64,000 bases of DNA from Lachnospiraceae bacterium (lineage in GTDB: Bacteria > Bacillota > Clostridia > Lachnospirales > Lachnospiraceae), in contig JAIKXM010000021.1 in assembly GCA_024684085.1 (NCBI GenBank), positions 1-64,000 of the forward strand. Reading direction: 5' to 3'. Made by a program: the position numbers and the translations under genes. This document shows positions 32,211-53,265 of the stretch, piece after piece. The notes below the pieces were generated by a model. It made no database searches and was not told the origin of the DNA. It worked only from the letters and a program-made list of their open reading frames with translations. The number at the start of each line of letters is the position of its first letter. Positions within the stretch are counted from its first letter, which is position 1.

Positions 32211-32268
32211 GTAATAGAGGGGAGGCTTTGACTTTTGAAGAGTGACACACGTGAAAGATTGAAGTGAA

Positions 32269-32327: not shown

Positions 32328-32357
32328 TATATTTCTATATATATTCATACATATTTT

Positions 32358-32366
32358 TGCTATAAT
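32358..32366 (+). promoter_or_regulatory. Extended -10 promoter before hisC
   Basis: TTTGCTATAAT includes TGC-TATAAT (an extended -10, 32361-32366 for TATAAT). No clear -35. The leader to the hisC ATG is about 85 nt. Confidence 0.45.
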
Positions 32367-32459
32367 ATTATTTTGGAGTTATTTGTAAAGATATCGGTAC
32401 AGGTGTTGTATTAAGCTCTGTACCATTGATCTGATTAGTATGATCGAGGAGGATCAGTT

Positions 32460-34266: not shown

Positions 34267-35151
34267 ATGGGAGATTATATGATCAGAGCGATTGCGGCCA
34301 ATGCCAATATCCGTGCTTTTGCGGCGGTATCCAAGGATACCGTGGAAGAGGCGAGGAAGAGGCATGACTTAAGCCCTGTTGCCTGTGCGGCACTTGGAAG
34401 ACTGCTTACCGGTGGTGCCATGATGGGCAGTATGCTGAAAAGCGAGGATGACCTGATCACTCTTCAGATAGCAGGTGACGGTCCGCTGGGCAATGTGATA
34501 GTTACTTCCGACAGTCATGGCCGCGTGAAGGGATTCGTCGGCAATCCTTCGGTAATGATGCCGCTTAATCCCATGGGTAAGCTTGATGTCGGAGGTGCGA
34601 TAGGTAAGGGAGTCCTTACTATCATCAAGGATATGGGACTTAAGGAGCCTTACGCAGGTCAGGTTGAGCTGCAGACGGGTGAGATAGCGGAGGATCTTAC
34701 ATATTACTTCGCAGTATCGGAGCAGGTTCCCTCTTGCGTGGGACTTGGAGTTCTGGTCAATACCAAGGACTCGACCGTCAGACAGGCGGGGGGATTCATT
34801 ATCCAGCTTATGCCGTTTGCAGATGATGAGATAATAGACAGGCTTGAGAAGAACATCAGGAGCCTTCCAAGTGTTACCACCATGTTGGATGAGGGCAAAG
34901 ATCCTGAGCAGATCCTTAAGCTTGTGCTGGATGGATTTGATATGGAGATCACGGATACGATGCCTCTGGAGTTCAAGTGTAACTGCGACAGAGACAGGAT
35001 CGAGAAGGCGCTTGTGAGTATCGGCCCCAAGGAGGTCCAGTCAATGATAGATGATGGCAAGCCGATAACGATGAACTGCCACTTCTGCAACACCGACTAT
35101 ACATTTGATATAGAAGAGCTGAAGAAAATTAAGGCATCCATGAAGCGATAA
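34267..35151 (+). CDS. hslO: Redox-regulated chaperone Hsp33
   Basis: 294 residues. The N-terminal domain has GRLLTGGAMMGSMLK and QIAGDGPLGNV; the C-terminal zinc domain has CNC about 237-239 and CHFC about 270-273 (CxC and CxxC), which bind zinc when reduced and form disulfides on oxidation to switch on holdase activity. GAGAGG lies before the ATG, which abuts the stop of the methyltransferase. Its last codons (MKR-stop) form the first unit of a tandem repeat that fills the next intergenic space. Confidence 0.95.
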   Translation: MGDYMIRAIAANANIRAFAAVSKDTVEEARKRHDLSPVACAALGRLLTGGAMMGSMLKSEDDLITLQIAGDGPLGNVIVTSDSHGRVKGFVGNPSVMMPLNPMGKLDVGGAIGKGVLTIIKDMGLKEPYAGQVELQTGEIAEDLTYYFAVSEQVPSCVGLGVLVNTKDSTVRQAGGFIIQLMPFADDEIIDRLEKNIRSLPSVTTMLDEGKDPEQILKLVLDGFDMEITDTMPLEFKCNCDRDRIEKALVSIGPKEVQSMIDDGKPITMNCHFCNTDYTFDIEELKKIKASMKR

Positions 35152-35370
35152 TTGACAAAAAGAAATGATTACGACCGGGTTGTTAATGAAGTGATGATCG
35201 AATATAGTCTAAGAAGATTGAGGCGTCTATGAAGCGCTGAATGGGTGGCAATAACAGGTCGTCTATGGAGCACTGATTGAACGATAATAACATGGTGTTT
35301 ATGAAGTGATGATCGATCAGAACCTAAGAAGTACGGATCATTCATGAAGAGTTGAATGGCTAATTATTAT
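35140..35370 (+). repeat. Degenerate tandem repeat beginning in the last codons of hslO
   Basis: Six units start with ATGAAGYGNTGAT-like sequence at 35140, 35186, 35229, 35265, 35301 and 35344 (steps 46, 43, 36, 36, 43). Units two and five share ATGAAGTGATGATCGA and CTAAGAAG; units three and four are 36 bp. The first unit is the hslO C-terminus and stop codon. No CRISPR-like constant repeat. Confidence 0.65.
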
Positions 35371-35383
35371 AAGGAGAACGGAT

Positions 35384-36643
35384 ATGAGATATAGTAAGGA
35401 AGATATACTGCGAATGGTAGAGGAGGAGGACGTCGAATTCATCCGTCTGCAGTTTACCGATGTGTACGGCAATCTTAAGAATATGGCGGTAACTCCCAAT
35501 CTTCTGGAGAAAGCATTAAATAACAGATGTTCTTTTGACGGCGGAAACATTAGAGGGTACGATACCAACCAGGATACTACCATGTATCTCTATCCCGATA
35601 CCAATACTTTCGAGATCTTCCCATGGAGACCTCAGCAGGGCAAGGTTGCGAGGCTCTTCTGTGATGTATATAACGAGGAAGGTGAGCCATTCAGCGCCGA
35701 TCCCCGTATGGTATTAAAAAGAGTGGCGACTGAGGCTAAGGAGCTTGGATATGATCTCTATGTAGGTCCCGAGTGCGAATTCTTCCTGTTTAATATGGAC
35801 GATAACGGTATGCCTACCGTTGATACCAAGGAAAAAGCGGGCTATTTTGACTGTGGTCCCATTGACTTTGGCGAGAATGCGAGACGAGACATAGTCCTCA
35901 ATCTGGAGCAGATGGACTTCACGATCGAGTCTTCACATCATGAGCAGGCTCCCGCCCAGCATGAAGTTGACTTCAGATTCGATACGGCTGTCAATACCGC
36001 CGATAATATCCAGACATTCAAGCTTGCTGTTAAGACTATCGCAAGGAGACACGGCCTTCATGCCACATTCATGCCCAGACCCAAGAGCGGTGTGAACGGC
36101 TCGGGCATGCATCTCAACATGTCGCTTGGCATCAACAAGAAGAATTTATTCTTTGACGAAGCTGACATCAGAGGCTTAAGCCACGAGGCTTATTGCTTTA
36201 TGGCAGGCATAGCTGAGCATATCGGCGCTATCTCTGCCATAGCCAATCCTTTGGTTAATTCTTATAAAAGAACGGCGATTAGCAGAGGAAGCCTTTTCAA
36301 CATACCGAAGACGAGCAAGACTTCAGCAAGGATAGAGCTTAGGAGCCCCGATCCTTCAGCTAATCCCTATCTTGCTCTTGCAGTATGCCTTAAGGCAGGG
36401 CTTGAAGGCATCAGGAACAATACGCCTTATGATAAGGATGAATTATGCAAGATCAGGATGACTGATGTTCTCCCCGGGAATCTCGGTGAGGCACTGAAGG
36501 CACTTGAGGAAGACGAGCTTGTTAAGACATGCCTTGGAGAAGAGCTTGTAGAAGATATTCTCACTATCAAGAAGAGTGAGTGGAAGGAATACTGTAGTAA
36601 AGTAACCGATTGGGAAGTAGAACAGTATCTTGATAAGTATTGA
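35384..36643 (+). CDS. Type I glutamine synthetase-like protein lacking the catalytic flap
   Basis: 419 residues against about 444 for clostridial GlnA. The GS core is clear: FIRLQFTDVYGN, MYLYPDTNTFEIFPW, VGPECEFFLF (metal-binding Glu pair), IESSHHEQAPAQHEVDF, MPRPKSGVNGSGMH, ARIELRSPDPSANPYLA. But after NPLVNSYKR the sequence jumps to TAISRGSLFNIPKTSK: the flap residues normally reading VPGYEAPxYxAW, which hold the Glu that closes the glutamate site, are absent. DGSSIxG is also changed to DGGNIRG, and about 10 residues near 375 are missing. It may make glutamine poorly, act on another amine, or be regulatory. It is followed 17 bp later by an ANTAR gene, a common clostridial nitrogen-control pairing. 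Confidence 0.85.
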   Translation: MRYSKEDILRMVEEEDVEFIRLQFTDVYGNLKNMAVTPNLLEKALNNRCSFDGGNIRGYDTNQDTTMYLYPDTNTFEIFPWRPQQGKVARLFCDVYNEEGEPFSADPRMVLKRVATEAKELGYDLYVGPECEFFLFNMDDNGMPTVDTKEKAGYFDCGPIDFGENARRDIVLNLEQMDFTIESSHHEQAPAQHEVDFRFDTAVNTADNIQTFKLAVKTIARRHGLHATFMPRPKSGVNGSGMHLNMSLGINKKNLFFDEADIRGLSHEAYCFMAGIAEHIGAISAIANPLVNSYKRTAISRGSLFNIPKTSKTSARIELRSPDPSANPYLALAVCLKAGLEGIRNNTPYDKDELCKIRMTDVLPGNLGEALKALEEDELVKTCLGEELVEDILTIKKSEWKEYCSKVTDWEVEQYLDKY

Positions 36644-36660
36644 TTTAGAGGAGAGATGAC

Positions 36661-37206
36661 TTGAATACTAACATAATAGTTGTCTTTCCCAAGATGGAGG
36701 AGGCTCTTAAGCTAAGGAACCTTCTTAAGCGCAATGGCTTTGAAGTGGCTGCAGTCTGTACATCGGGGGTTCAGGCCTTATCTCATGCGGATGCCCTCTC
36801 TACCGGTATTATGATAAGCGGCTACAGGTTGGAGGATATGCCTTATTTTGAGGTTAAGCAGGATATGCCTACAGGCTTCTCTATGCTGCTTCTGGCTTCC
36901 GAGAAGAGATTGGCTGATGGGGTTGAACCTGATGTCATGACACTCGGCATGCCTTTTGTCATCTCGGACTTTCTGGATACGGTTCAGATGATGTGCGAAG
37001 CCTGCTATGCAAGGAAGGAAAAGAGGATATCCAAGACTCTAAGGACGGAGAAAGACAATCAGCTTATAGATGAAGCTAAGAAACTGCTGATGGTCAGAAA
37101 CGGACTGTCTGAAGAAGAAGCTCACAAATATCTGCAGAAATGCAGTATGGATTCAGGTGTTAACGTGGTTGAGACCGCCGGTATGGTACTCACTATGTAT
37201 AGTTGA
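36661..37206 (+). CDS. ANTAR-domain RNA-binding antiterminator, pseudo-receiver type
   Basis: 181 residues, TTG start with AGGAG 8 bp upstream. Residues 1-115 fold like a response-regulator receiver, but the phosphoacceptor position has no Asp (GIMISGYRL), so it is a pseudo-receiver. Residues about 125-181 match the ANTAR three-helix domain (IDEAKKLLMVRNGLSEEEAHKYLQKCSMDSG). ANTAR proteins bind paired hexaloop hairpins in leader RNAs and prevent termination, often on nitrogen genes. Here it follows a GlnA-like gene in the same transcript. Its final ten codons form unit one of the following tandem repeat. Confidence 0.88.
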   Translation: MNTNIIVVFPKMEEALKLRNLLKRNGFEVAAVCTSGVQALSHADALSTGIMISGYRLEDMPYFEVKQDMPTGFSMLLLASEKRLADGVEPDVMTLGMPFVISDFLDTVQMMCEACYARKEKRISKTLRTEKDNQLIDEAKKLLMVRNGLSEEEAHKYLQKCSMDSGVNVVETAGMVLTMYS

Positions 37207-37386
37207 TAAGCGTGCATAGCGCGGTGTGGTACTCACTATGTATAGTTGATAAGTGCGCATAGCGCGATGTGGTACTCACCATGTATAGTTGATAGGCGCA
37301 CATATCGCCGGTATGGCGCTTACGAGGTATAGTTGTTTGGTGACTGCGACCGCCGGTGTGGCGCATAACGTATAGTCGTTAAGTGG
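37177..37386 (+). repeat. Tandem repeat of 43-45 bp that begins inside the ANTAR gene
   Basis: Five units, 37177-37220, 37221-37263, 37264-37306, 37307-37351 and 37352-37386, each GCSGGTRTGGTACTCAC..ATGTATAGTTGAT-like. The first encodes the last residues and stop of the ANTAR protein; later copies are untranslated and get steadily less similar. The last runs into the start region of the MBOAT gene. Confidence 0.8.
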
Positions 37387-37406
37387 TTGAAGTTTGGGAA
37401 ATTAAA

Positions 37407-38891
37407 ATGTCATTTAATTCTTACATTTTCTTGTTCTGCTTCCTGCCTTTATGCTTGTTAGGCTGGTATGGATTGAACAAATATGGCAAATATAATATGG
37501 CCTTGGGCTTTCTGACACTCATGTCACTGTGGTTCTACGGGTATTTCAATCCGAGTTACCTGCTGATCATGGTAGCCAGTGTATCAGTGAATTACTTCCT
37601 AAGCTTCCTGATGGACAGGTCGGAGAAGTTCAACAAAGTCTTCATGGTGACAGGAGCTCTGTTCAATCTCGGGCTGCTTTTCTATTATAAGTATTACGAT
37701 TTCTTTATTGAGAATGTGAATGCCGTATTTAAGACGGATTATAATCTTAAGCATATATTGCTTCCGCTGGGTATCAGCTTTTTCACTTTCCAGCAGTTCT
37801 CGTTCATAATCGAGAGGGGCAGGAAGAAGATACCTCACTGCGGACCGGCGGAATACGCGGCTTTCGTTACCTTTTTTCCTCAGCTTGTTGCGGGGCCGAT
37901 CGTGCTCTACGAGGAGATGATCCCGCAGTTCAGGGATAAGGCGAGGAGATCGTTCAATGCCGATAACATGTATAACGGCATTGGGTATTTTGTGATGGGA
38001 CTCGCTAAGAAGGTGCTGCTGGCCGATGTTCTTGCAATTCCTGTGAATTACGGCTTTGATAATAGTATATATATGGATGCCGTAGGAACTGTTCTTGTCA
38101 TGACAGCCTATACGCTTCAGCTGTATTTTGACTTCAGCGGTTACAGTGATATGGCTATCGGTCTTGGACTGATGTTCAATCTGGAGCTTCCGGTCAACTT
38201 CAAGTCTCCCTACAAATCGTCGACTCTTAAGGAGTTGTGGGAGAGATGGCACATGACACTCACAAGGTTCCTTAGGAATTATGTGTATATTCCGCTTGGC
38301 GGCAACCGTAAGGGTAAGGCTAGAAAACTCTTCAATATATTTGCGGTCTTTGTGGTGAGCGGAATCTGGCATGGCGCTTCGTGGAATTATATAATCTGGG
38401 GTATACTGACCGGTATAATAGTCATATGGAATAATCTCAATATCTTCGGATATGATAAGAATGCAAGTAATCCTGCAAAAATAGTTCTGCCTGAGTTTAT
38501 CGGCCGGATCATAACTCCGATAACATTTGCATTTCTGCTTATCCCCTTCAGATCCCCTGATATAGCGACTATCTGGGTGTTGCTCAGGAATCTGACAAAG
38601 GGCTGGACAGGCAATGCATATAAAATAGCTAACGTTATTAAATTGCCCGAAATGTATATTATCGAAGAAATCCTGCAAAAGGTAGCACCTTCATATACTA
38701 ATATGTTTGCTCTGGGTGTGTTCATCCTTCTGTGTGCTCTGGGAATATTCATATGCAGTAGGAAGAATACGGCTCAGATAGTTAACGCCTACAGAGAGAA
38801 GCGCTGGTTCATGCCGGTCTGCGTTCTGCTTCTGGTATATTGTATTATTTCGTTCTCGCAGGTCAGTACCTTTATATATTTCAATTTCTAA
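37407..38891 (+). CDS. MBOAT-family O-acyltransferase (DltB/AlgI-like)
   Basis: 494 residues, about 11-12 membrane helices. MBOAT hallmarks: FFPQLVAGPI (about 160), YFDFSGYSDMAIG (about 240), ELWERWHMTL (His about 285) and the catalytic His322 in SGIWHGASWN. Such proteins acylate an extracellular polymer such as alginate, teichoic acid or peptidoglycan. The ATG at 37407 begins a natural first helix; a GTG at 37383 lies within the repeat tract. The SGNH-like protein at 39123 is its probable partner, separated by an AG-rich 24-bp tandem repeat. Confidence 0.9.
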   Translation: MSFNSYIFLFCFLPLCLLGWYGLNKYGKYNMALGFLTLMSLWFYGYFNPSYLLIMVASVSVNYFLSFLMDRSEKFNKVFMVTGALFNLGLLFYYKYYDFFIENVNAVFKTDYNLKHILLPLGISFFTFQQFSFIIERGRKKIPHCGPAEYAAFVTFFPQLVAGPIVLYEEMIPQFRDKARRSFNADNMYNGIGYFVMGLAKKVLLADVLAIPVNYGFDNSIYMDAVGTVLVMTAYTLQLYFDFSGYSDMAIGLGLMFNLELPVNFKSPYKSSTLKELWERWHMTLTRFLRNYVYIPLGGNRKGKARKLFNIFAVFVVSGIWHGASWNYIIWGILTGIIVIWNNLNIFGYDKNASNPAKIVLPEFIGRIITPITFAFLLIPFRSPDIATIWVLLRNLTKGWTGNAYKIANVIKLPEMYIIEEILQKVAPSYTNMFALGVFILLCALGIFICSRKNTAQIVNAYREKRWFMPVCVLLLVYCIISFSQVSTFIYFNF

Positions 38892-38937
38892 GGGTTCTGA
38901 TTGGTTTTTGACTGGCCTTCGGTTCAGACTTCTGCCC

Positions 38938-39045
38938 GGACATGAAGCGTCCACGGACAGTCACATGAAGCCGTCCACGGACAGTCGGGTGAGGCCATCC
39001 ACGGACAGTCACATGAAGCCGTCCATGGACAGTCACATACAGTCG
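38938..39045 (+). repeat. Tandem repeat of exactly 24 bp
   Basis: Units begin GGACAGT at 38955, 38979, 39003 and 39027, after a partial unit at 38938. Consensus GGACAGTCACATGAAGCCGT then CCAC. On the minus strand it reads CDCPWTAS repeats, but no start or ribosome site supports a protein. Confidence 0.8.
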
Positions 39046-39122
39046 TTTGCCGGCAGGATGATTTGAATATTATTATTTTTTCGATATATGACAGTAGTGT
39101 CATCGACAAAAATGAGGTTTAG

Positions 39123-40190
39123 ATGTTAAAGAAATTAAAATACGCTTTAATTTTATATATAGTATTGCTGGCCATTCCCGTTCTGGCAGTCGTAATATTT
39201 GATCCGTATTATCATTACCATAAGCCGTTAAAAGGCTTAAAGGCCGTGCTGTACGAGAAGGAATACCAGGTTGTGGGCACTCTTGATCACTTTGATTATG
39301 ATGCGGTCATCGCCGGATCTTCGGTTGCTGAGAATTATAACAACAGCTGGTTCGATGAGATCTTTGGTGTTAAGAGCGTAAAAGCGATAAGGTCATATGG
39401 GGCTACAGCCGATCTTTGCAGCTTCCTTGACAGGGCATATGAGGATCATGATCTGAAGATGGTATTCTATAATCTCGATCCGTCTTCACTGAAGGTCGAT
39501 CCCGAGGTTACCTTTGAGTCGTCCGGATGCCCCATGTATCTGTATGATGACAATATCCTCAATGATGTTAAGTACATATATAATAAGGATGTCATATTTG
39601 AGAAGATTCCATATATGCTCGCCAAGTCTTTCTCGGATTATGATGAGGGTGAGTCCTATAACTGGGGCAGATGGAAGCATTTTGACCTTGAGATGTGTAT
39701 ATCGCAGTATTACAGGCATCCTTCAGTTACACCCATGCAGGAGGCTTCATACCGCGATGAGGCCGGTGAGGCCAATATTACGCTGATCGAGAATATCGTA
39801 TCGGCGCATCCCGAGACCAAGTTTATTATATTCACGCCACCTTATTCGATGCTGTGGTGGGACAATGCTTATCGGGAAGGTGATACGGAGATGTATCTTA
39901 GGCTCCTCGATTTTGCGGTAAAGAGGCTTAGTACCTATGATAATGTCCGTTTCTTCATGTTCAGCGGAGACAGGGATGTGGTACTTAATATAGAAAACAA
40001 TTATATGGATACGCTTCATTTCTCGCCCGAGATCAACCGTTATATGGTCGATCGCATGAGTCGCGGGGAGATGGAAGTGGACACTGCCAATATATCCGAA
40101 GAGATAGAGAAGCTTCGGCAGATGGCTTACGAGATCCCCGAGGAGCTTATCAAGCCGTATGAAGATGTGCTGATATACGGTGAAGAGTAG
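39123..40190 (+). CDS. SGNH-like acyl-transfer or esterase partner of the MBOAT protein
   Basis: 355 residues. One N-terminal membrane helix (about 5-27) then an extracytoplasmic domain. AGSSVAENY (Ser66/Ser67 with the GxSxxE layout) and DTLHF (Asp296, His299) resemble the Ser and Asp-x-x-His blocks of SGNH hydrolases, as in AlgJ/AlgX and DltD. The MBOAT partner supplies the acyl group and this protein would transfer it to the polymer, or strip it. Its ATG is preceded by GAGG, 6 bp away. Polymer unknown. Confidence 0.72.
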   Translation: MLKKLKYALILYIVLLAIPVLAVVIFDPYYHYHKPLKGLKAVLYEKEYQVVGTLDHFDYDAVIAGSSVAENYNNSWFDEIFGVKSVKAIRSYGATADLCSFLDRAYEDHDLKMVFYNLDPSSLKVDPEVTFESSGCPMYLYDDNILNDVKYIYNKDVIFEKIPYMLAKSFSDYDEGESYNWGRWKHFDLEMCISQYYRHPSVTPMQEASYRDEAGEANITLIENIVSAHPETKFIIFTPPYSMLWWDNAYREGDTEMYLRLLDFAVKRLSTYDNVRFFMFSGDRDVVLNIENNYMDTLHFSPEINRYMVDRMSRGEMEVDTANISEEIEKLRQMAYEIPEELIKPYEDVLIYGEE

Positions 40191-40223
40191 ATATCAATAT
40201 AAAAAACACAGGAGATTATGAAA

Positions 40224-40919
40224 ATGGCAGATGGAATTAACGGAGAAGTAAGGTCGGTCATCAAGGAGAGCCTTAAGACTATGACACCGATGCAGAAAGT
40301 GCTGTATCTGCTGGATTGCTATAAGTGGCATCTTCTTATTACTATAGTGCTGCTTTCGGTGGCTATTCATACGATCGTCGCCATTGCCACCAAGAAGGAG
40401 ATGGTCCTGTCGGTCGCGGTCATCAACGGACCTGCCGCCAATGAGGACAAGATCAACGAACTTGCGTATAATTATTGCAAAAGTGTGGGCATTGACACAG
40501 ATACCTGCGAGATACTGATCGACATCAATTACACGATCGGCCATGGCGAGAATGAAACGGTCATGGGAGATTATCAGACACAGAAGCTTATGGCAAGCGC
40601 TTCCATGGGAATGCTGGATGTGATAATCACGGATAAGGAGACTTTTGAGTTTCTTTCGGAGAATGGTTTCCTTATGAATATGGAAGATCTGCTCGATAAG
40701 GATGAGCATGACAGGCTTGCAGAACGCATTGTCAAGGCAGATGTGGTCGATGACGAGGACAATCGGACGCAAGAAGAGACGGGAATCGATATTACCGGAT
40801 TTGAGAAGGTGGCGTCCGAAGGCTGGTATTATGATACCGGGTGTTATGTCGGAGTTAATTACTACACGGAAAATAAGGACAGGTGTCTTGAGTTCATCGA
40901 TTATATAACTGAAAAGTGA
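40224..40919 (+). CDS. Single-pass membrane protein, uncharacterised
   Basis: 231 residues. A short cytoplasmic N-terminus, one membrane helix (about 30-52) and an exterior alpha/beta domain whose order (VLSVAVINGPAANEDKINELAYNYCKSVGID; then DVIITDKETFEFLSENGFLMNMEDLL; then YYDTGCYVGVNYYTENKDRCLEFIDYI) resembles a small periplasmic-binding-like fold. The ATG at 40224 has GGAG 9 bp upstream; an ATG at 40218 is only 3 bp from it. In line with the MBOAT and SGNH genes. Function unknown. Confidence 0.7.
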   Translation: MADGINGEVRSVIKESLKTMTPMQKVLYLLDCYKWHLLITIVLLSVAIHTIVAIATKKEMVLSVAVINGPAANEDKINELAYNYCKSVGIDTDTCEILIDINYTIGHGENETVMGDYQTQKLMASASMGMLDVIITDKETFEFLSENGFLMNMEDLLDKDEHDRLAERIVKADVVDDEDNRTQEETGIDITGFEKVASEGWYYDTGCYVGVNYYTENKDRCLEFIDYITEK

Positions 40920-40980
40920 TCGGTATATCGTTGCCATGATATTTGACAGAAAGATGAACAGACATGCTCGGATCAGCCAT

Positions 40981-41018
40981 GTATCATCCCTAGTATCATC
41001 CCCAGTATCATCCCTGTA
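40981..41018 (+). repeat. Three 12-bp repeats inside an inverted repeat
   Basis: GTATCATCCCYA-like units at 40981, 40993 and 41005, bounded by CAGCCAT (40974-40980) and ATGGCTG (about 41018-41024), which pair. Short, could form a stem with the repeats looped out. Confidence 0.6.
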
Positions 41019-41066
41019 TGGCTGAAGGGATCCGCGTAATAAATGACAAAGTCTTATAATTATGGC

Positions 41067-41095
41067 TTGAAAAAAATAAATTCCTGAGATAGAAT
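41067..41095 (+). promoter_or_regulatory. Promoter of the 41120 gene
   Basis: TTGAAA (41067-41072), exactly 17 bp, TAGAAT (41090-41095). Confidence 0.6.
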
Positions 41096-41119
41096 TGACC
41101 TAATATACAGAAGGTAGAA

Positions 41120-41644
41120 GTGGAGATTGAAGTGAACGATCATTATGAATTTTTAGTACCCGTGGCACAGAATAAGAAGTTTGCGGTACTCAGAGTCTTA
41201 TTGTGGATAGTATTCGTTATCGGATGTTTCGGAGCGATATTCGCGGCTCTTGGGATCGCTGTAGGACTGATATTCGCACTTGTAGCCGTTGCTTCAGGAT
41301 ACGGTGCGTATTTCTGCGGTAAATGGGTGGATATAGAATATGAATATACTCTTGTTGAGAAGGAGCTTGACGTAGACGTTGTCTTCCGTAAGGAGAGCAG
41401 GAAGCATCTTGAGACTATCGATCTTCTTAAGATGGAGATATTCGCGCCTGAGAAAAGTTCGGCGCTTGACATGTATCGCAACAGAGACGTAAAAGTAGTG
41501 GATTACAGCTCAAGGAAGCCTGAGAATGAAGATAAGCGCTATGTATTATATTATGACGGTTCTACCAAATATATTCTTGAACCGGAAGAGAGACTGATCA
41601 AGGCTTTTTACAATATCGCACCACGTAAGGTATTCGATAAATAA
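41120..41644 (+). CDS. Small membrane protein, DUF6106-like
   Basis: 174 residues: two adjacent membrane helices (about 22-70) with small flanking polar parts, then a beta-rich cytoplasmic domain ending YYDGSTKYILEPEERLIKAFYNIAPRKVFDK. The layout and final EPEERLIKAFYNIAPRK stretch match clostridial DUF6106 proteins, of unknown function. The GTG at 41120 has AAGG 5 bp upstream, and a GTG at 41132 has GGAG 6 bp upstream, so the start is ambiguous by four codons. Own promoter; followed by the 50-bp tandem repeat. Confidence 0.65.
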   Translation: MEIEVNDHYEFLVPVAQNKKFAVLRVLLWIVFVIGCFGAIFAALGIAVGLIFALVAVASGYGAYFCGKWVDIEYEYTLVEKELDVDVVFRKESRKHLETIDLLKMEIFAPEKSSALDMYRNRDVKVVDYSSRKPENEDKRYVLYYDGSTKYILEPEERLIKAFYNIAPRKVFDK

Positions 41645-41680
41645 GACTTTTTTGGGAACATGATGGGGGGGTATAACAGC

Positions 41681-41835
41681 CAGCTATGTGATTATCCGTA
41701 TAGACGGATTGGATGGATCGGCTGGCATCAGTCTGCTGTGTGATCGTTGCATAGACAGGCGGACAGCTCGGTTGGCAACAGTCTGCTGTGTGATCGTTGG
41801 CATAGATAGGCGGACAGATCGGTTGGTATCAACAG
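41681..41835 (+). repeat. Tandem repeat of about 50 bp before guaB
   Basis: Units 41681-41728, 41729-41778 and 41779-41829. The second and third share CAGTCTGCTGTGTGATCGTT then CATAGAYAGGCGGACAG and CGGTTGG; the first is more diverged. It fills the leader region of guaB. Confidence 0.75.
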
Positions 41836-41881
41836 TTGGAGTGAGAGATCACTCTGACATCATAATATACATTATATTTAG

Positions 41882-43345
<1,464 letters not shown>

Positions 43346-43353
43346 TAATATTT

Positions 43354-44724: not shown

Positions 44725-44787
44725 ATCGAAGCATAGGCTTATTGGTCTTGCAATACGGGATAAATATTAGGAAAAGGGGAAATGAGA

Positions 44788-44972
44788 GTTACTGTTCACA
44801 CCCGTGTTTTTGTAAATAGCTACAGGAAATATATTCATATGAAACGCCTATGTGGGCGTCGGCACTTAGCGAGGCAAAGCCGAGCTTAGTGTCCGCTACG
44901 CTCACATCGGAGCGAGAGCGCCGTTTCGGTGAATATATTTCCTGTAGCGGACAGACACCTGTGAACAGTAAC
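44788..44972. mobile_element. MITE-like palindromic element, complete (copy D)
   Basis: 185 bp with perfect 13-bp terminal inverted repeats, GTTACTGTTCACA and TGTGAACAGTAAC. AAATGAGA immediately before and AAATGGGA immediately after match at 7 of 8 positions, a possible 8-bp target duplication. Sub-terminal blocks TACAGGAAATATATTCA are also inverted. No transposase. Inverted relative to copy B. Confidence 0.85.
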
Positions 44973-45023
44973 AAATGGGACGTTGGTTAGGATGTTCCGC
45001 TATATACGGTGGACCCTCTGATA

Positions 45024-45032
45024 TGGTATAAT
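45024..45032 (+). promoter_or_regulatory. Extended -10 promoter of the GGDEF-EAL gene
   Basis: TGGTATAAT (TG-N-TATAAT, TATAAT at 45027-45032). No convincing -35. Confidence 0.45.
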
Positions 45033-45054
45033 TAATACGTTGGAGAGGCTATAT

Positions 45055-47676
45055 ATGGATAGTTTAGAGAATAAAGACTTACACCCTATTTCCTATAAGA
45101 ACAGAATGTCGACGGTCATCGGCTTTTATTCGTGTGTCTATGATAGCTATGGCAAGGTCATAGAGGACTTTGATTGCTCTGATGAAGAGAGGGCGGTCAT
45201 TGATAAATACTTCGATGAGCGCATAAGGAATGAGATCTTTGGCAGACTGACCATCGACAGTATCGAGGATCAGATAATAGAAGATACCGCTTCGCCTTTC
45301 TTCAAGATAGCTGCGATCGCTCTTAAGTGGAAGGGCAGATGTCGTGAAGTATGGTTCCTTTGTGGTGCCATGGCTGATCAGGTCTATGATATCTATCCGG
45401 AATATCGTGCTCTTACACGCCATATTGTGGCTTCCGGCTTCAACGATGCCATTGATCTCGTAAGGGAGATGGGTCAGTATCGTATAGAGAATGAATATGC
45501 GCTTTCTCAGTCAAGAGAAGAGAACCAGAAGAGTCATTCTTCGGTGATCGGACTTGAGGATTCACTCAGAAGAGTTGAGACTATCAAGGATCTTCTGAAA
45601 TATATGGATAATGATAACAGCCTGGAGTATATATTCGGCGAATTTCTTAAGCTGACCGCCGAATATCTGCGGGTTGACGGTGCTGCGCTCTTCAAGGTAC
45701 ACAACGAAGAGGATGAGACCATGGATGTTGTGGGTACGTGGACTGCGGAAGGCCAGCCGGCTTTCTTTGATAAGACTGTCAATATCCCCAGATTCAGGAT
45801 ACTTAAGGGAAATCGCCCGATCATCATCTCAAGCGGTTCGATGGCTCTTAATAATTTCAAATACGACTGGGACAAGAGTCGTCTCGGTGTTAAAGCCATT
45901 GTAGCCATGCCTCTTGTGGTCAATCACAGGATCAATCTGTATGTTACATATACCGAATCACGTGAGGACAGGAACTGGAGGGTTGAAGATCTCCAGTTCT
46001 TAAGTGATGCCATAAGGATCCTTCAGAGTATAGTCGAGCGAAGAATGCAGAAGAATTCCCTTGCGGGTTCGTATGCCTCTCTGGAGCAGATACTTGAGCA
46101 TGTTGGCTGTGCGATAATCGTTAACGATATTCAGAGGCACAAGACTCTCTTTATGAACAAGATAATGCGGTCTGTTTTCCCATTGGACAGATTAGGCAGG
46201 GAACTTAATGACATTATCTGGGAAGTAAACGGCGTCGAGGACAATGAGCTCGAATTATATGATTATGATAAGGGAGCATGGTATGAGATCCACCATAGCG
46301 ATATCAGCTGGGTGGATGGCAGACCTGTTGCCCTTTTTGCGATATATGATGTGACTGATAAGAAGAATTATCAGCGCAGGATAGAGCAACAGGCGTATAC
46401 GGACTTCCTGACGGGGCTCTATAACAGGATGTGCTGTGAGAGAGATCTTGCATGTATCATCGATGAAGCTAAGAAAACAGGCACCAAAGGTGCTCTCTGC
46501 TATATAGATCTTGATGATTTCAAGCATATCAACGACGGATTGGGACATCAGTACGGCGATGTGCTCTTAAAGGCTGTTTCGGCTGCTTTTAAGGATGTAA
46601 GAGGAATAGAAGACACCTGTTATCGAATGGGCGGAGACGAATTCGCGCTGGCCATTCCGCCTAAGAGTTATGCTTTTCTGGAAGAGATAGTCAACAATAT
46701 CAAGGCTATATTCGCCAAGCCCTGGTACCTTAAGGATGCTGATTATTACTGTACCATGAGTATGGGAATCGTTACCTTCCCGGATGAGGGTGACAAGGTT
46801 GACGATCTGATCAAGAAGGCCGACATTGCTATGTATGAGGCCAAGAAGACAGGTAAGAACAGGGTGGCGACCTATAACAGCAAGTCGCTCTCCGAGTCCA
46901 GCCGACGTCTGGATATGGAGAAGAATATGCGTGACGCCGCCAATGATGCTTTTAACGAATTTATCGTTTATTATCAGCCGGTTATAGATGTGACCCAGGA
47001 AGGAAATCCCTGTATAGGAGCGGAGGCCCTGATCAGATGGGATTCGCAGGTACTCGGATTCGTTAATCCGGCGGATTTCATTCCGCTTGCAGAGTATCTC
47101 GGACTTATCAATCCGATCGGAGATTACGTTCTTAGGGAAGCCTGCAAGGAATGTAAGAAGTGGAACGACAAGGGGCATCCCGATTATAAGGTCAATGTTA
47201 ACCTCTCTGTTGTTCAGCTTATGCAGAATAATATAGTTGAGAGTATCATGGGTATCATTGAGGAGACGGGCATCGAGCCCCGCAATCTTACTCTTGAGGT
47301 TACGGAGAGTCTTGCCATCAATGATATGGAGAGAATGAAGAAGATCATGTCCGAGATCCGTCAGGCGGGAGTTAAGATCGCACTTGATGACTTCGGAACG
47401 GGTTATTCCTCACTCAATCATATCAGGGAGATACCTCTCGATATCATCAAGGTGGATCAGTCATTTGTTAAGGAACTTGTGGATGATGATTACTCCAAGT
47501 CATTCATCAAGATGGTGGCCGAGCTTGCGGGCGCCATTAACGTGAGTGTCTGCGTCGAAGGTATCGAGACCGAAGAACAGTTTGATGTGCTCTCAGGCAT
47601 GAAAGTTAATTATATTCAGGGCTATTATTTTAGCAAACCTATTAGAAGAGAAGAATTTGAGGAAAAATATCTATGA
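45055..47676 (+). CDS. GAF-PAS-GGDEF-EAL c-di-GMP signalling protein
   Basis: 873 residues: N-terminal helical region (1-185), GAF (about 190-335), PAS-like (about 345-435), GGDEF domain with GGDEF at 526-530, and EAL domain with EAL at 657-659. The diguanylate cyclase motif is intact, and the preceding inhibitory RxxD site is not in register (RGIED instead). The EAL domain keeps NVNLS, LEVTES, LDDFGTGYSS, KVDQ and EGIET, the residues needed for metal and catalysis, so both making and breaking c-di-GMP are possible. No membrane helix, thus a cytoplasmic sensor. The ATG at 45055 is preferred to TTG 45040 because GGAGAGG is correctly spaced. Its stop overlaps the DHH gene by 4 bp. Confidence 0.93.
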   Translation: MDSLENKDLHPISYKNRMSTVIGFYSCVYDSYGKVIEDFDCSDEERAVIDKYFDERIRNEIFGRLTIDSIEDQIIEDTASPFFKIAAIALKWKGRCREVWFLCGAMADQVYDIYPEYRALTRHIVASGFNDAIDLVREMGQYRIENEYALSQSREENQKSHSSVIGLEDSLRRVETIKDLLKYMDNDNSLEYIFGEFLKLTAEYLRVDGAALFKVHNEEDETMDVVGTWTAEGQPAFFDKTVNIPRFRILKGNRPIIISSGSMALNNFKYDWDKSRLGVKAIVAMPLVVNHRINLYVTYTESREDRNWRVEDLQFLSDAIRILQSIVERRMQKNSLAGSYASLEQILEHVGCAIIVNDIQRHKTLFMNKIMRSVFPLDRLGRELNDIIWEVNGVEDNELELYDYDKGAWYEIHHSDISWVDGRPVALFAIYDVTDKKNYQRRIEQQAYTDFLTGLYNRMCCERDLACIIDEAKKTGTKGALCYIDLDDFKHINDGLGHQYGDVLLKAVSAAFKDVRGIEDTCYRMGGDEFALAIPPKSYAFLEEIVNNIKAIFAKPWYLKDADYYCTMSMGIVTFPDEGDKVDDLIKKADIAMYEAKKTGKNRVATYNSKSLSESSRRLDMEKNMRDAANDAFNEFIVYYQPVIDVTQEGNPCIGAEALIRWDSQVLGFVNPADFIPLAEYLGLINPIGDYVLREACKECKKWNDKGHPDYKVNVNLSVVQLMQNNIVESIMGIIEETGIEPRNLTLEVTESLAINDMERMKKIMSEIRQAGVKIALDDFGTGYSSLNHIREIPLDIIKVDQSFVKELVDDDYSKSFIKMVAELAGAINVSVCVEGIETEEQFDVLSGMKVNYIQGYYFSKPIRREEFEEKYL

Positions 47677-49217
47677 TTCTTAGTGCGTTGTGTTCATATG
47701 ATCCGATAACTATCCAATGTCATGATAATCCCGATCCTGATACGGTTGCGGCCGGTTTTGCATTATATAATTATTTCCTGAGCAAGGGTAACAGAGTAAG
47801 GCTTATCTATTCGGGTCATAATAATATCAGCAAATCCAATATAAGATATATGGTGAACTGGCTCGATATCCCCCTGCAATACAGGGCGATGAATGCCGGA
47901 CATATAGAAGGACTTCTGATCATGGTGGACTGCCAGTACGGTACGGGTAATGCCCAGAAGTTCACTGCCGATCATATAGCGGTTGTCGATCATCATCAGC
48001 TGAATATGAAGGAGAGCGAGCTTACGGAGATTCAGCCGGATCTTGCGAGTGCTTCGACTCTGTGCTGGAAACTTCTGATGGACGAAGGATTCGAGGTTAA
48101 TTCCAATCTTAAAATGGCAACGGCACTTTACTACGGCCTGTATATGGATTCCAATTCCATGGCTGAGTTGTACAATCCTCTCGACCTTGATATGCGAGAC
48201 TATCTTAAGTTCGATAAGGCTTTATTCAGCAGATTGAGGAACTGCAATCTGTCGCGTAAGGAACTGGAAGTGGCCGGAGTTGCGCTTATCCGTAATATCT
48301 ACAATGAGAAGCATCGTTTTGCGGTTGTCAGGGCGGGCTTCTGTGATCCCAATCTTCTGGGACTTATAGCCGATTTCCTGTTGCAGGTGGATGATGTGGA
48401 TACCTGCGTTGTATATAATGAACAGCCTGACGGCTTCAAAGTATCGGTACGAAGCTGTGTAAGGGAAGTTAAGGCTGATGAGCTTGCAGAATATATCTGC
48501 GGTGAGATAGGAACCGGTGGCGGTCATCACGAGAAGGCCGGCGGATTCATCGCCAAGAGCCTCTATGAGAAGAATTATCCGTCCATCCACAGCGAATCTT
48601 ACTTCGGAGACCGTATCAACAGTTATTTCGAAGATACCGAGATCATACGTGTGGGCGAGTATGAAGCTGACTTAAGGGGCATGAAGCTATACAAGAGGAA
48701 GGATTATACCGTAGGCTACGTCAGAGCCAAGGAGATATTCCCCATCAATACACCGATCCTGATACGTTCCCTTGAAGGCGACGTGGAAGTGGATATAACC
48801 GATGATCTTATACTGATGATAGGCGTCAGAGGAGAGGTCTATCACAAAACAGAGAGCAATTTTGCAAAAGAATACATTGAACTTGATGGCAATTATTCAC
48901 TGGAAGACAGTTGCATCAAGACAACTTATATCCCTAAGGTAACCAATAAGGATACGGGTGAGTCGGTAGTGCTCACTGAATATGCTCACAGATGTACCTC
49001 GTCTAAGCAGGTGAGGATGTACGTTAAGCCTTTGGACAGATATGTGAAGGTATTCAGTGATGATTTCTCGGATGCATATATACTCGGCAAGCCGGGCGAT
49101 TATCTTGTCATCAGGGCGGATGTTGATAATAAGATCCGTATAATGGACGCTGAGGTCTTCGAGCATACGCTTATGCCGCTTCAGGGCAGGAACATGAGAC
49201 TTGGAAGTGGGTCGTAA
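47673..49217 (+). CDS. DHH/DHHA1 phosphoesterase with a C-terminal extension, likely linear dinucleotide or pGpG hydrolase
   Basis: 514 residues. DHH motif I HDNPDPDTVAAG (17-28), motif III VDHH (105-108) and DHHA1 GTGGGHHEKAGG (280-291) match NrnA/GdpP-type enzymes that cut pNpN or cyclic dinucleotides from an end. Motif I has DTVAA rather than DAIGS. The last 190 residues are an unusual beta-rich extension. It starts in an ATGA overlap with the GGDEF-EAL gene; EAL enzymes release pGpG, so this neighbour is a plausible pGpG nuclease finishing the pathway. NrnA-type nanoRNase or pAp phosphatase are alternatives. Confidence 0.82.
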   Translation: MILSALCSYDPITIQCHDNPDPDTVAAGFALYNYFLSKGNRVRLIYSGHNNISKSNIRYMVNWLDIPLQYRAMNAGHIEGLLIMVDCQYGTGNAQKFTADHIAVVDHHQLNMKESELTEIQPDLASASTLCWKLLMDEGFEVNSNLKMATALYYGLYMDSNSMAELYNPLDLDMRDYLKFDKALFSRLRNCNLSRKELEVAGVALIRNIYNEKHRFAVVRAGFCDPNLLGLIADFLLQVDDVDTCVVYNEQPDGFKVSVRSCVREVKADELAEYICGEIGTGGGHHEKAGGFIAKSLYEKNYPSIHSESYFGDRINSYFEDTEIIRVGEYEADLRGMKLYKRKDYTVGYVRAKEIFPINTPILIRSLEGDVEVDITDDLILMIGVRGEVYHKTESNFAKEYIELDGNYSLEDSCIKTTYIPKVTNKDTGESVVLTEYAHRCTSSKQVRMYVKPLDRYVKVFSDDFSDAYILGKPGDYLVIRADVDNKIRIMDAEVFEHTLMPLQGRNMRLGSGS

Positions 49218-49328
49218 GAGTGGCGGAGAGCCGGGTGACGTTGGACGAAAACTCAGTCCGGTATATTTTTTAAAAACGGCATACTGCGTCTAGGCGTTGA
49301 TGATAATGGTGAGGCGGGGTGTGACTAA

Positions 49329-49334
49329 TATAAT
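49329..49334 (+). promoter_or_regulatory. Probable -10 of glnS
   Basis: TATAAT at 49329-49334, about 20 bp before the glnS start; no clear -35 and no T-box leader recognised. Confidence 0.35.
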
Positions 49335-49355
49335 AGTAGGAGTTATTAGGTAATT

Positions 49356-51017
49356 ATGAGTACAGAAAGCAGGAATTTTATTGAGCAGGCCATTGATAAG
49401 GATCTGGCGGAAGGCGTATACGACAATGTCCATACACGTTTTCCTCCCGAACCTAACGGTTACCTGCATATAGGTCATGCAAAGAGCATACTTCTGAACT
49501 ATGGCCTTGCATGCGAATATAATGGCAAATTCAACATGAGATTCGATGATACCAATCCCACCAAGGAGAAGACGGAATTCGTTGAATCCATCAAGAAGGA
49601 TATACAGTGGCTTGGCGCTGATTGGGAAGACAGACTTTTCTTCGCATCAGACTACTTTGATCAGATGTATGAAGCGGCAGTTAAGCTTATCAGGAAGGGC
49701 AAGGCTTATGTATCGGATCTTACAGCCGATGAGATCAGAGAGTATAGAGGTACGCTTACAGAGCCCGGTAAGAAGGATCCTGCTTCGGACAGGAGCATCG
49801 AAGAGAATCTCGCTCTTTTTGAAGATATGAAGAACGGTAAGTTCGAGGACGGGACCAAGGTGCTCAGAGCGAGAATAGATATGTCATCTCCCAATATGAA
49901 TATGAGAGATCCCGTTATCTATCGTGTGGCTCATATGCATCATCATAATACAGGCGATAAGTGGTGTATCTATCCGATGTACGACTTCGCTCATCCTATC
50001 GAGGATGCGATCGAGGGCATAACACACAGTATCTGCACACTGGAGTTCGAAGATCACAGACCTCTGTATGACTGGGTTGTAAGGGAACTTGAGTATCCCA
50101 ATCCTCCGAGACAGATAGAATTTGCCAAGATGTATCTTACCAATGTTGTAACAGGTAAGAGATATATCAAGAAGCTTGTGGAAGAGAATATAGTGGACGG
50201 ATGGGATGATCCGAGACTTGTATCTATAGCAGCTCTCAGAAGAAGAGGTTTTACACCTGAGTCTATTAAGATGTTCGTTGATCTCTGCGGTGTCAGCAAG
50301 AGCAATTCTTCCGTTGACTACGCTATGCTTGAGTATTGTATAAGAGAAGATCTTAAGCTTAAGAAGACCAGAGTAATGGCAGCTTTGGATCCTATCAAAC
50401 TTATCATAGACAATTATCCCGAAGGACAGACGGAAGTTCTTGAAGTTCCCAATAACCTTGAGAATGAGGAACTTGGTACAAGAAAGGTTCTTTTCTCTCG
50501 TGAGCTCTACATCGAAAGAGAAGACTTCATGGAAGAGCCGCCCAAGAAGTATTTCAGATTATTCCCGGGTAATGAAGTAAGACTGATGCATGCCTACTTC
50601 GTTAAGTGTACCGGTTTTGATAAGGATGAGAACGGTAATATAACAGCCGTTCATTGTACTTATGATCCCGCATCAAAGGGCGGTAACAGCCCTGACGGAC
50701 GTAAGGTCAAGGGTACTATCCACTGGGTTAATGCAGAGACAGCCGTTAAGGCGGAGTGTCGTCTGTATGAGAATCTGATCGATGAGGAAAAGGGTGTATA
50801 TAATGAGGACGGATCGCTTAACCTCAACCCCAATTCCATCGAGGTGAGAAAAGATTGTTACATTGAGACCTATGTCAAGGGTTCGGTTGCATTCGATAGT
50901 TTCCAGTTTGTTCGTAATGGTTTCTACTGTGTTGATTGCAAGGACTCAACCCCGGACGCCCTTGTTTTTAACAGAATAGTATCACTTAAGAGTTCCTTTG
51001 TATTGCCTAAGAATTGA
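49356..51017 (+). CDS. glnS: Glutaminyl-tRNA synthetase
   Basis: 553 residues, class I. N-terminal [18 protein letters not shown] contains the HIGH motif; NMRFDDTNP and the [16 protein letters not shown] stretch are GlnRS-specific, and the C-terminal beta-barrels bind the anticodon (tail through VLPKN). Clostridia that have GlnS charge tRNA-Gln directly rather than relying on GatCAB transamidation. The start, about 20 bp after TATAAT, has AGGAG. A DUF2225 gene follows 20 bp downstream. Confidence 0.96.
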
Positions 51018-51037
51018 CGTGTATTGTGGAGGGGTAA

Positions 51038-51862
51038 ATGGATATTAACTTATTTGACGGCCTGGAGGATCTGGGTCTTGGAGATATGATGGATGTCAGT
51101 ATCTTCGGAGATGACGGCGGTAAGAAGGTGGCTGAGCTTCAGGAGGAGGCTATGCTCATCGATAAGAGCTACGAGTGCTTCGTCTGCTCATCGGACTTCA
51201 AGTGTAAGACGGTGAGAAGCGGTAAGGCCAAGCTTCTGTCGACGGATACGGATCTCAGGCAGAAGTATGAGGGCATCGAGCCTCTGAAATATGATATTGT
51301 TGCTTGCCCAGAGTGCGGATTCGCTGCAGCGACGAGATTCTTCAATCCGCTTTCTCCCGGACAGGTTAAGCTCATCAGGGAGAAAATATCTGCGAATTAC
51401 AAGAAGCAGGAAGGCGAGAAGAGTCTGATCGACTTTGATGAGGCGATCAAGAGGTACAAGCTTGCCCTTGCCAATACGGTTGTCAAGAAAGGCCCCGACA
51501 GTGAGAAGGCATATATCTGCCTTAGAGCAGGCTGGTTGTGCAGGAGCTATGCTGAGGAGATAGCATCAGCTTCAGTAAGGGATGATGAAAAATATAAGTC
51601 CATTAAGGCTTTGGAGGACGAATTTCTCAAGGGCGCGTACGAGGGCTTCGTTAACTCAAGGAATAATGAGATCTTCCCGATATGTGGTATGGATAAGGCG
51701 ACGGTAGATTACCTGGTGGCCTGCCTTGCGTGCAGATTCGGCTTCTATGATGTCAGTGCGAAGGTGATCTCGACCTTGTTGTCATCGTCATCAGTTCCGC
51801 CGCGAGTTAAGGACAGAGCAAGAGATCTGAAGGAAGAGCTGATGCATAAGGTGAAGAGCTGA
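51038..51862 (+). CDS. DUF2225-family protein
   Basis: 274 residues. A zinc-ribbon-like region (CxxC pairs in SYECFVCSSDFKCKT and VACPECGFAAATRFFNP) and then a helical, TPR-like part (about 120-270) with paired helices such as KRYKLALANTVVKKG and YICLRAGWLCRSYAEE. Function unknown; the family is common in Clostridia. GGAGGGG lies before the ATG. It closes the glnS transcript, ahead of the terminator at 51919. Confidence 0.85.
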   Translation: MDINLFDGLEDLGLGDMMDVSIFGDDGGKKVAELQEEAMLIDKSYECFVCSSDFKCKTVRSGKAKLLSTDTDLRQKYEGIEPLKYDIVACPECGFAAATRFFNPLSPGQVKLIREKISANYKKQEGEKSLIDFDEAIKRYKLALANTVVKKGPDSEKAYICLRAGWLCRSYAEEIASASVRDDEKYKSIKALEDEFLKGAYEGFVNSRNNEIFPICGMDKATVDYLVACLACRFGFYDVSAKVISTLLSSSSVPPRVKDRARDLKEELMHKVKS

Positions 51863-51918
51863 TGCATACAAAAAATGTCTTTAAGCTCTGACTATTTTTC
51901 ATTAATTATTATTAAACA

Positions 51919-51958
51919 CAATAAAAAAAGAATGTCCACTGACATTCTTTTTTTATTG
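51919..51958. terminator. Bidirectional terminator
   Basis: Stem AATAAAAAAAGAATGTC with its complement, loop CACT, flanked by long A and T runs. It serves the rightward DUF2225 gene and the leftward small protein. Confidence 0.9.
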
Positions 51959-51981
51959 CACTGCATCATTGATCCCTACGA

Positions 51982-52179
51982 TCAGTCCTTGGGGAGAGTA
52001 AGCCTTGTGTAGTGTCTTCTGGTGGGTTCCTCGCCGTCGCCTTCCTGATCTTTAGCTGCGCCCTTACCGAACATATCGCTGATCGAACCGCCCGTGTAGT
52101 AGTCGATCAGAGCGATGACACCGACGATAAAGGCAATAACTGAAATAAAGGCCAAAAGAAAACTGATGAATTTTTTCAT
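51982..52179 (-). CDS. Small single-helix membrane protein
   Basis: 65 residues from the ATG at 52179, with AGAGGTG 5 bp upstream; a TTG at 52197 would add six. One hydrophobic helix (about 5-27, FISFLLAFISVIAFIVGVIALI) and a charged, mixed tail (GKGAAKDQEGDGEEPTRRHY). No family is recognised. It faces a divergent TetR gene over a space that holds an 8-bp inverted repeat (52211-52218 with 52232-52239), so it could be regulated by it. Confidence 0.7.
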   Translation of the reverse strand: MKKFISFLLAFISVIAFIVGVIALIDYYTGGSISDMFGKGAAKDQEGDGEEPTRRHYTRLTLPKD

Positions 52180-52409
52180 AAAAACACCTCTTTTCAAAAT
52201 ATGATCAAATGACTCTGCATTGATATTAACGGCAGAGTCTCTCGAAATCTCTGTATATCATATATTCTATATGTTACCGCTTGAAAAAGCAAGGATAATG
52301 GTGCTGAAAATCATTGACCGTTTTGGTTAAAATCTGTTTTTTTTTACTATGAATTGTGATATTATGATGCTGGGAGCGAAGTAAAAAAGTGTATTCAGGT
52401 GGTGGAAGT

Positions 52410-53006
52410 ATGAATGTTAAGTTTTTTGATCTGAGCAGTGAGAAGCAGGACAGGATGATCAATGCAGCGCTCATGCATTTTTCGATAAACGGTTATAAGC
52501 ACGCAAGTACGGACGATATCGTTAAGAGTGCTTCGATCAGTAAGGGGTTGCTGTTCCATTATTTCGGCAGTAAGAACGGATTGTTTAATTTTCTTATAGG
52601 ATACAGTATAAGATATATCTGTAATGAGTATGAGAGGACGATCTTGAAGGAAACGGACTATTTCGAGTTCAAGCTCAAGCAGGAGAGTGCGAAGAATGAT
52701 ATCCTTCGCAATTACCCTTATATGTTCAGTTTCGTGGACAGATTTGTTGAGAGCAATGAGGATGAGATGGACGAGGCTTCCAAAGAGTCAGTCGCCAATT
52801 ATTTCAAAGTAATGGAGAATTACTGGAACAGGCTGGAGTTTCCGGAGCTTAAGAAGGATGCAGATATCAGAGTGGTCAATGATCTGATCGATTATGCGTC
52901 TGCGGGTCTTACGGAGAAGGCGCTGAGGAACGGAACGGTCAAGGCGGATAAGCTTAACAAGCAGATCTGTGAGTATATCAATTATATCCGCGAGATGACT
53001 CTTTAA
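52410..53006 (+). CDS. TetR/AcrR-family regulator
   Basis: 198 residues. Helix-turn-helix at about 10-58: DDIVKSASISKGLLFHYFGSKNGLF. The rest is the helical ligand/dimerisation part. The ATG at 52410 is chosen over a GTG at 52389 since AGGTGG is 8 bp upstream. Divergent from the small membrane protein; downstream, a tandem repeat and a UUCG-loop hairpin precede addB. Effector and targets unknown. Confidence 0.85.
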   Translation: MNVKFFDLSSEKQDRMINAALMHFSINGYKHASTDDIVKSASISKGLLFHYFGSKNGLFNFLIGYSIRYICNEYERTILKETDYFEFKLKQESAKNDILRNYPYMFSFVDRFVESNEDEMDEASKESVANYFKVMENYWNRLEFPELKKDADIRVVNDLIDYASAGLTEKALRNGTVKADKLNKQICEYINYIREMTL

Positions 53007-53023
53007 TGACCTGGTACCGCTAT

Positions 53024-53135
53024 CGGTATATATCAGCCTGCAAAGAAGTATCTGAGCGGTATATAATAGCCTGCATACGGTATCTGAACGGCATATATCA
53101 GCTTAAAAACGGCATCTGAGCGGTATTTAAACGGC
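53024..53135 (+). repeat. Tandem repeat of 32-33 bp between tetR and addB
   Basis: Units 53024-53056, 53057-53088 and 53089-53120 plus a partial one; consensus CGGTATATATCAGCCTG then ACGGTATCTGA. The hairpin CCTGCC-TTCG-GGCAGG follows at 53143-53158. Confidence 0.7.
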
Positions 53136-53140
53136 ATCAT

Positions 53141-53164
53141 AACCTGCCTTCGGGCAGGTTATTT
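53141..53164 (+). terminator. Probable terminator of the TetR gene
   Basis: An 8-bp stem closed by a TTCG tetraloop (AACCTGCC/GGCAGGTT, 53141-53160) followed only by ATTT, so weak. Confidence 0.5.
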
Positions 53165-53265
53165 GAATAATACGGATGTGAAAGATATGCAGGGGTCAAA
53201 ACGGTAATCCGGCTTAGGAGTAGCGACGATAAGCTTTCGTTTTCTGAAGTTGCACAGGGGGGAAC

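Follow-up and report, generated by a model that had tools for sequence, protein, structure and literature searches.

Unrelated tandem arrays between the genes of a Lachnospiraceae genome are probably independent, ordinary minisatellites

The DNA studied here, referred to as the window, comprises positions 1 to 64,000 of contig JAIKXM010000021.1 (assembly GCA_024684085.1). It comes from a metagenome-assembled genome of a Lachnospiraceae bacterium that belongs to the same genus as Candidatus Colinaster equi, a genus described from horse faeces (PMC8957277). Six spaces between genes in the window carry tandem arrays, each with a unit of its own. An earlier note, made from the sequence alone, had attributed them to a recurrent mechanism that expands 3' ends of genes or spacer DNA. 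We find it likely that the six are independent minisatellites of the ordinary kind, generated by generic slippage or tandem duplication and filtered by selection. In the genome as sampled, arrays keep away from gene starts, coding arrays keep the reading frame, and the array load is roughly two-fold higher in this lineage than in its relatives.

Results and Discussion

The six arrays are real and unrelated to one another

Of the six arrays, five were reported by Tandem Repeats Finder (TRF). Their scores range from 64 to 207, whereas the other repeats that TRF scored in the window mostly reach 30 to 58. The array that follows hslO has decayed too far to be reported by TRF; nevertheless, its gap scores 30 when matched against itself without gaps, and none of 500 dinucleotide shuffles scores above 17. 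The five gaps with TRF arrays likewise exceeded all 500 shuffles in self-match, and when six other gaps of the window were subjected to the same test five gave P≥0.098 and one (32101-32459) P=0.028. All six arrays proposed in the earlier note therefore exist. When 417,659 bp of the genome were shuffled three times with dinucleotide composition kept, 1, 3 and 0 arrays resulted, compared with 50 in the actual sequence. Equal frequency in shuffled sequence, which the note had named as speaking against it, is thus not what is seen.

The units are head-to-tail direct copies longer than about 9 bp and are repeated beyond chance, as is characteristic of minisatellites. None of the six arrays matched another, which agrees with the note's claims that the units share no sequence and that no single mobile repeat is involved. 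The search was extended to a genome sample consisting of the window and 40 further stretches, mainly contig starts (776,349 bp, 33% of the genome), in which the 24-, 12-, 50- and 32-bp arrays and the hslO array matched only themselves; the 43-bp array had no match elsewhere in the whole genome. A dispersed intergenic repeat family of the MIRU (mycobacterial interspersed repetitive unit), REP or ERIC type was rejected for the window arrays because each matches only itself, and a CRISPR array was rejected because the units lie head to tail without spacers (no CRISPR caller was run). The local clustering is mildly unusual: given the rate seen in this genome, the chance that some 18-kb part of the window holds at least five TRF arrays is P=0.038, a value uncorrected for the region having been picked by hand.

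Since the genome is a draft of 46 contigs with 85.68% completeness, an artefact of metagenome assembly was considered, but we give it next to no chance: the copies differ by substitutions (TRF matches of 74-90%), the arrays lie inside long contigs, and arrays in coding regions keep frame.

Two arrays copy the tail of the preceding gene

Two of the arrays originated from the 3' terminal part of the preceding gene, the copy within the coding region being ancestral. The first donor is hslO, encoding the Hsp33 chaperone (34267..35151, plus strand; NCBIfam NF001033, 337 bits; Pfam HSP33). Six degenerate copies of its 3' end follow at 35140..35359 on the plus strand with a spacing of 36-46 bp. Their cores, ATG(A/G)AG, start at 35140, 35186, 35229, 35265, 35301 and 35344, and each is followed by an in-frame-like TGA or TAA. 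Copy 1 is hslO's own tail with its stop codon, and the tail aligns with the gap over 26 bp with 22 matches. The hslO-GS gap measures 232 bp here versus 12, 45, 50, 51 and 208 bp in congeners.

The second donor is an ANTAR-domain gene (36661..37206, plus strand; Pfam ANTAR, E=5e-15), whose C-terminal codons and stop codon form the first unit of the 43-bp array. This array (37179..37393, plus strand) begins 28 bp within the coding region and has three well-kept and two decayed copies (TRF 37179-37335, 3.6 copies, score 207). The encoded tail is GMVLTMYS-stop, and the orthologs end in GMVLSMYGSLGY, RMVFSMYGVSFES, KMVLSLF and similar sequences. Because the orthologs keep a similar C-terminal motif, the coding copy is ancestral and the copies in the spacer derived. 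From the ANTAR stop codon to the ATG of the MBOAT gene at 37407 there are 200 bp here, counted on the sequence, and the corresponding spacers of six orthologs measure 0, 3, 3, 15, 28 and 71 bp. This ATG was set by homology with the ATG-CTT-TTT-AAT-TC of the orthologs; the simple custom script used for gene calling, which can err in its choice of start, had given 37473 or 37497.

ANTAR proteins target a hairpin motif with an A-N-N-G-N-N hexaloop, and it can be asked if the arrays are regulatory, as repeated binding sites or RNA elements, with the ANTAR protein perhaps binding hairpins behind its own gene. Weak hairpins with such a hexaloop do occur in two adjacent 43-bp units (37213-37228 and 37256-37271), and region 35000-42000 has 8 hexaloop sites where 20 shuffles have a mean of 3.95. 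However, the stems have five pairs and are rich in G-U, the third 43-bp unit has no site, and the orthologous ANTAR genes have no array. An Rfam scan of the whole window at gathering thresholds gave only one tRNA and a DUF3800-XI RNA, neither of them in arrays, RNA folding of the six arrays shows nothing remarkable (z between -1.96 and 0.45), and six loci carry six unrelated units. A regulatory role is accordingly very improbable.

The units of the remaining four arrays, all on the plus strand, had no match to the preceding gene by sequence comparison. The 24-bp array after the MBOAT gene (38940..39038; TRF 4.2 copies, score 149) is followed by one more decayed copy to about 39059. The 50-bp array (41716..41826; 2.2 copies, score 187) lies between 41644 and guaB (41891), and the p41120-guaB gap is 246 bp here versus 15-157 bp in congeners (n=16). 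The 12-bp array (40981..41019; 3.3 copies, score 64) sits in the loop of a predicted stem, GGATCAGCCAT / ATGGCTGAAGGGATCC (window 40961-41037), and looks as if the loop of a hairpin had expanded; the fold is not more stable than those of shuffles (z=0.27). The 32-bp array follows a tetR-family gene (53024..53130; 3.3 copies, score 93), and a hairpin, AACCTGCC-TTCG-GGCAGGTT, lies 3' of it. In the syntenic region of congeners the gene order is largely kept, and no TRF array lies in any of the orthologous gaps that could be located.

Arrays are depleted at gene starts and keep the reading frame

With a TRF score of 50 as the limit, the genome sample contains 57 intergenic and 36 coding arrays. 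The intergenic units measure at least 20 bp in 44 of the 57. Of the intergenic arrays, 43 lie in co-directional gaps, 3 in convergent and 3 in divergent ones, while the other 8 are at the ends of stretches and lack a gene on one side (dropped only where stated). The earlier note had pointed out that all six window arrays lie just after a stop codon. All six do lie in a gap after a stop, but most gaps in the sample (585 of 643) are co-directional, and in this genome there is no significant excess at stops.

Among the 43 co-directional arrays, 9 overlap the preceding stop codon and 2 the next start. Expected contacts were obtained from 5000 simulations in which arrays were placed uniformly in the gap plus 50 bp on each side, contact being defined as overlap or a distance of at most 15 bp. 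Stop contact was observed 16 times with 14.3 expected, and hence the enrichment near stop codons for which the note had proposed a test was not detected when measured in this way. Start contact, on the other hand, was observed only 4 times with 14.1 expected, and none of the 5000 simulations gave a value as low. The depletion on the start side holds when the starts of the longest open reading frames are used (6 versus 15.1 expected with ATG; 7 versus 15.7 with any start, P=0.0004). Thus, the asymmetry between stops and starts arises because arrays are excluded from the start side, the stop side being at expectation. That arrays should be equally common away from stops had been named as evidence against the note's proposal, and apart from the depletion at starts this is close to what is seen.

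The mechanism favoured by the note has been weighed against these counts as a process linked to the 3' ends of genes, such as repair or replication restart at terminators or collisions near stops, that copies the gene tail into the spacer. It would fit the two of six window arrays that copy a gene tail, the surplus of stop over start overlaps, which is 19 versus 4 when relatives are pooled with this genome, and the pooled excess of stop contacts described below. It would also fit the decayed distal copies in four of the five window TRF arrays. This drift with distance, another claim of the note, was confirmed for the 43-, 24-, 12- and 32-bp arrays, but not for the 50-bp array, and genome-wide it disappears: the start-side flank was more repeat-like in 20 arrays and the stop-side flank in 16, with 5 ties (n=41, P=0.46), so that decay polarity was rejected. 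Moreover, stop contacts are at expectation in this genome with the asymmetry stemming from the start side, 36 arrays of the genome sample lie in coding regions away from gene ends, and a scan of 34500-54000 for terminator-like sites found 16, versus 12.2 in shuffles, with none inside arrays. We therefore regard a process tied to 3' ends as improbable.

Periods divisible by three were found in 33 of the 36 coding arrays (P=4e-13 versus one third) and in 24 of the 57 intergenic ones (P=0.16), a pattern that is the mark of selection acting on a frame-blind process.

These observations are consistent with ordinary minisatellites arising in the following way. Each array would have started when the DNA present at that site, whatever its nature, was duplicated in tandem between short matches. 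It may then have lengthened through slippage during replication or through unequal exchange among its copies, after which the copies would decay by point mutation. A duplication spanning a stop codon would keep the first stop and leave the protein unchanged, and duplications that come near a promoter, a ribosome-binding site or a start codon, or that break the frame, would tend to be removed by selection. The sequences show the placement, the kept frame and the donors directly; from these we infer that the molecular step was slippage or duplication at short homologies and that selection caused the placement.

The array load is raised in this lineage

Relatives were sampled for comparison. The congener sample comprised 40 stretches from 16 congeners (775,935 bp, 61,382 bp intergenic), and the Lachnospiraceae sample 79 loci (1,435,865 bp, 214,932 bp intergenic). 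Locus L108, being congener G001, was left out of the density count, and the placement test and the gap-shuffle test used only Lachnospiraceae loci >20 kb. With 110,631 bp of intergenic DNA in the genome sample, the density per intergenic kb was 0.515 arrays here versus 0.244 in congeners (15 arrays) and 0.233 in Lachnospiraceae (50 arrays). Exact tests on all 57 arrays gave P=0.009 against congeners and P=5e-5 against Lachnospiraceae, and without the 8 stretch-end arrays P=0.049 and P=0.002, respectively. Coding arrays numbered 36 here and 22 in congeners for equal amounts of sequence (P=0.036). The first 20 congener stretches, mainly syntenic ones, held only 3 intergenic arrays in 375,935 bp and made the congeners look almost array-free; another 20 stretches, taken from four congeners, added 12 arrays and moderated that impression.

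The difference is also seen in a test that compares each gap with its own shuffles, applied to 320 gaps drawn for this genome, 320 drawn for the family, and all 131 congener gaps. In this genome 63 of the 320 gaps were internally more repetitive than all 60 of their shuffles; the counts were 2 of 131 for congeners and 26 of 320 for Lachnospiraceae. Among gaps without a TRF array they were 25 of 281, 2 of 130 and 14 of 300, respectively. In addition, the intergenic fraction is 0.143 here and 0.079 in congeners. The part of the earlier proposal that invoked recurrent duplication lengthening the spacers of this lineage is thereby retained, and its tie to 3' ends and stop codons is not supported.

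The raised density, the surplus of internally repetitive gaps and the higher number of coding arrays would all be expected from a lineage-specific mutator state, in which an altered polymerase, nuclease or recombination function makes duplications. On the other hand, mutS, mutL, sbcD and recJ, the only four genes examined, all match their models at full or near-full length above cut-off and have no internal stops, and weaker selection on spacer length, as the intergenic fractions would allow, would give the same picture. We assign the mutator state a small but appreciable chance. A further reading holds that the spacers grew mainly because gene tails and stretches of spacer were duplicated in tandem again and again and then decayed, so that intergenic DNA rose from about 8%, as in congeners, to 14%, through a raised duplication rate with a genetic cause outside mutS, mutL, recJ and sbcD; this is unlikely. 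For ordinary minisatellites, the higher load would follow if duplications arose more often in this lineage or were removed less efficiently.

Several results weigh against the reading as ordinary minisatellites under selection with a raised load. When this genome is pooled with its relatives (83 arrays), stop contact does exceed expectation (33 versus 25.1, P=0.027), and it does so in Lachnospiraceae alone (13 versus 8.4, P=0.037). The excess of arrays over congeners is modest, as the P values of 0.009 and 0.049 indicate, and the genome sample consists mostly of contig starts, where assemblies break at repeats. The higher load is not explained by loss of mismatch repair or of RecJ or SbcD. Finally, the 50-bp array folds slightly better than its shuffles (z=-1.96, 5 of 200).

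Comparison with known repeat systems

The arrays of this genome were not found in print in the open-licence literature. Mycobacterial interspersed repetitive units are tandem repeats with units of about 40-100 bp that lie between genes, touch stop codons and form one related family. They share with the present arrays the intergenic tandem arrangement and the contact with stops, but the units here are unrelated.

A closer parallel is offered by the variable-number tandem repeats (VNTRs) of Yersinia pestis (PMC3689786). Of 88 loci, 48 are intergenic and 24 lie within open reading frames with units divisible by three; 10 loci overlap stop codons and 6 overlap start codons. Diversity is lower within 400 bp of the 5' end of genes, which its authors read as purifying selection. 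The pattern is the same as that of the arrays here: mostly intergenic, frame kept, and stops touched more often than starts. The Yersinia units differ in measuring mostly 7-21 bp, whereas 44 of the 57 intergenic units here are at least 20 bp long, with many decayed copies, and copy number was compared between Yersinia strains, whereas the present arrays are known from one genome per species.

The repeats of Borgs (PMC9879509) are scattered, have unrelated units and independent origins, and are nearly absent from the genomes of relatives. Some lie between genes, where 14-38% of the units are divisible by three; others lie within open reading frames, where all units are, or begin within the last part of a reading frame. 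They thus resemble the arrays here in their unrelated units, independent origins, preserved frame and possible start inside the end of a gene. Borg repeats are, however, perfect and enriched in A on one strand, and the arrays here are imperfect (the 74-90% matches given above). With an A content of 0.322 in arrays versus 0.327 in other gap DNA, and with imperfect copies, Borg-type repeats were rejected.

Other repeats in the genome

When the 57 intergenic units were compared all against all, the only links were a 62-bp and a 92-bp family, a pair of 18-bp units located at contig ends, and a single weak match of 27 bp. The 62-bp tandem unit is common to three distant loci (L039 15483-15616, L098 8724-8949 and L099 15249-15476) with 87-98% identity, and therefore some arrays of this genome belong to a dispersed family. 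The 92-bp unit occurs in two copies at two loci, L040 12303-12478 and L103 16028-16218, which are 93% alike over 60 bp. Two contigs carry the same 18-bp repeat roughly 100 bp from where they begin (L031 99-133 and L042 100-134), suggesting that it broke the assembly at both. A different 62-bp unit forms 13.5 copies with an 89% match at L098 770-1608 (contig C31 64770-65608, just past the window); sub-types alternate along this array, and both flanks carry TAGTTGAATG and a hairpin-like CCCTCC...GGGTCGTAT. The match to DUF3800-XI RNA (RF02975) in the window lies at 62978-63013 on the minus strand and scores 41.7 bits with a gathering threshold of 37.8.

Implications

The ANTAR gene provides a worked case of gene tails turning into spacer DNA, in that its conserved last codons and stop codon recur as decaying copies within a spacer of which relatives have next to nothing. 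A striking pattern of repeats after stop codons can arise from exclusion at gene starts, and not from attraction to gene ends. If the two-fold load were confirmed with closed genomes, this genus would be a place to look directly for the factors that determine how often small tandem duplications arise in bacteria.

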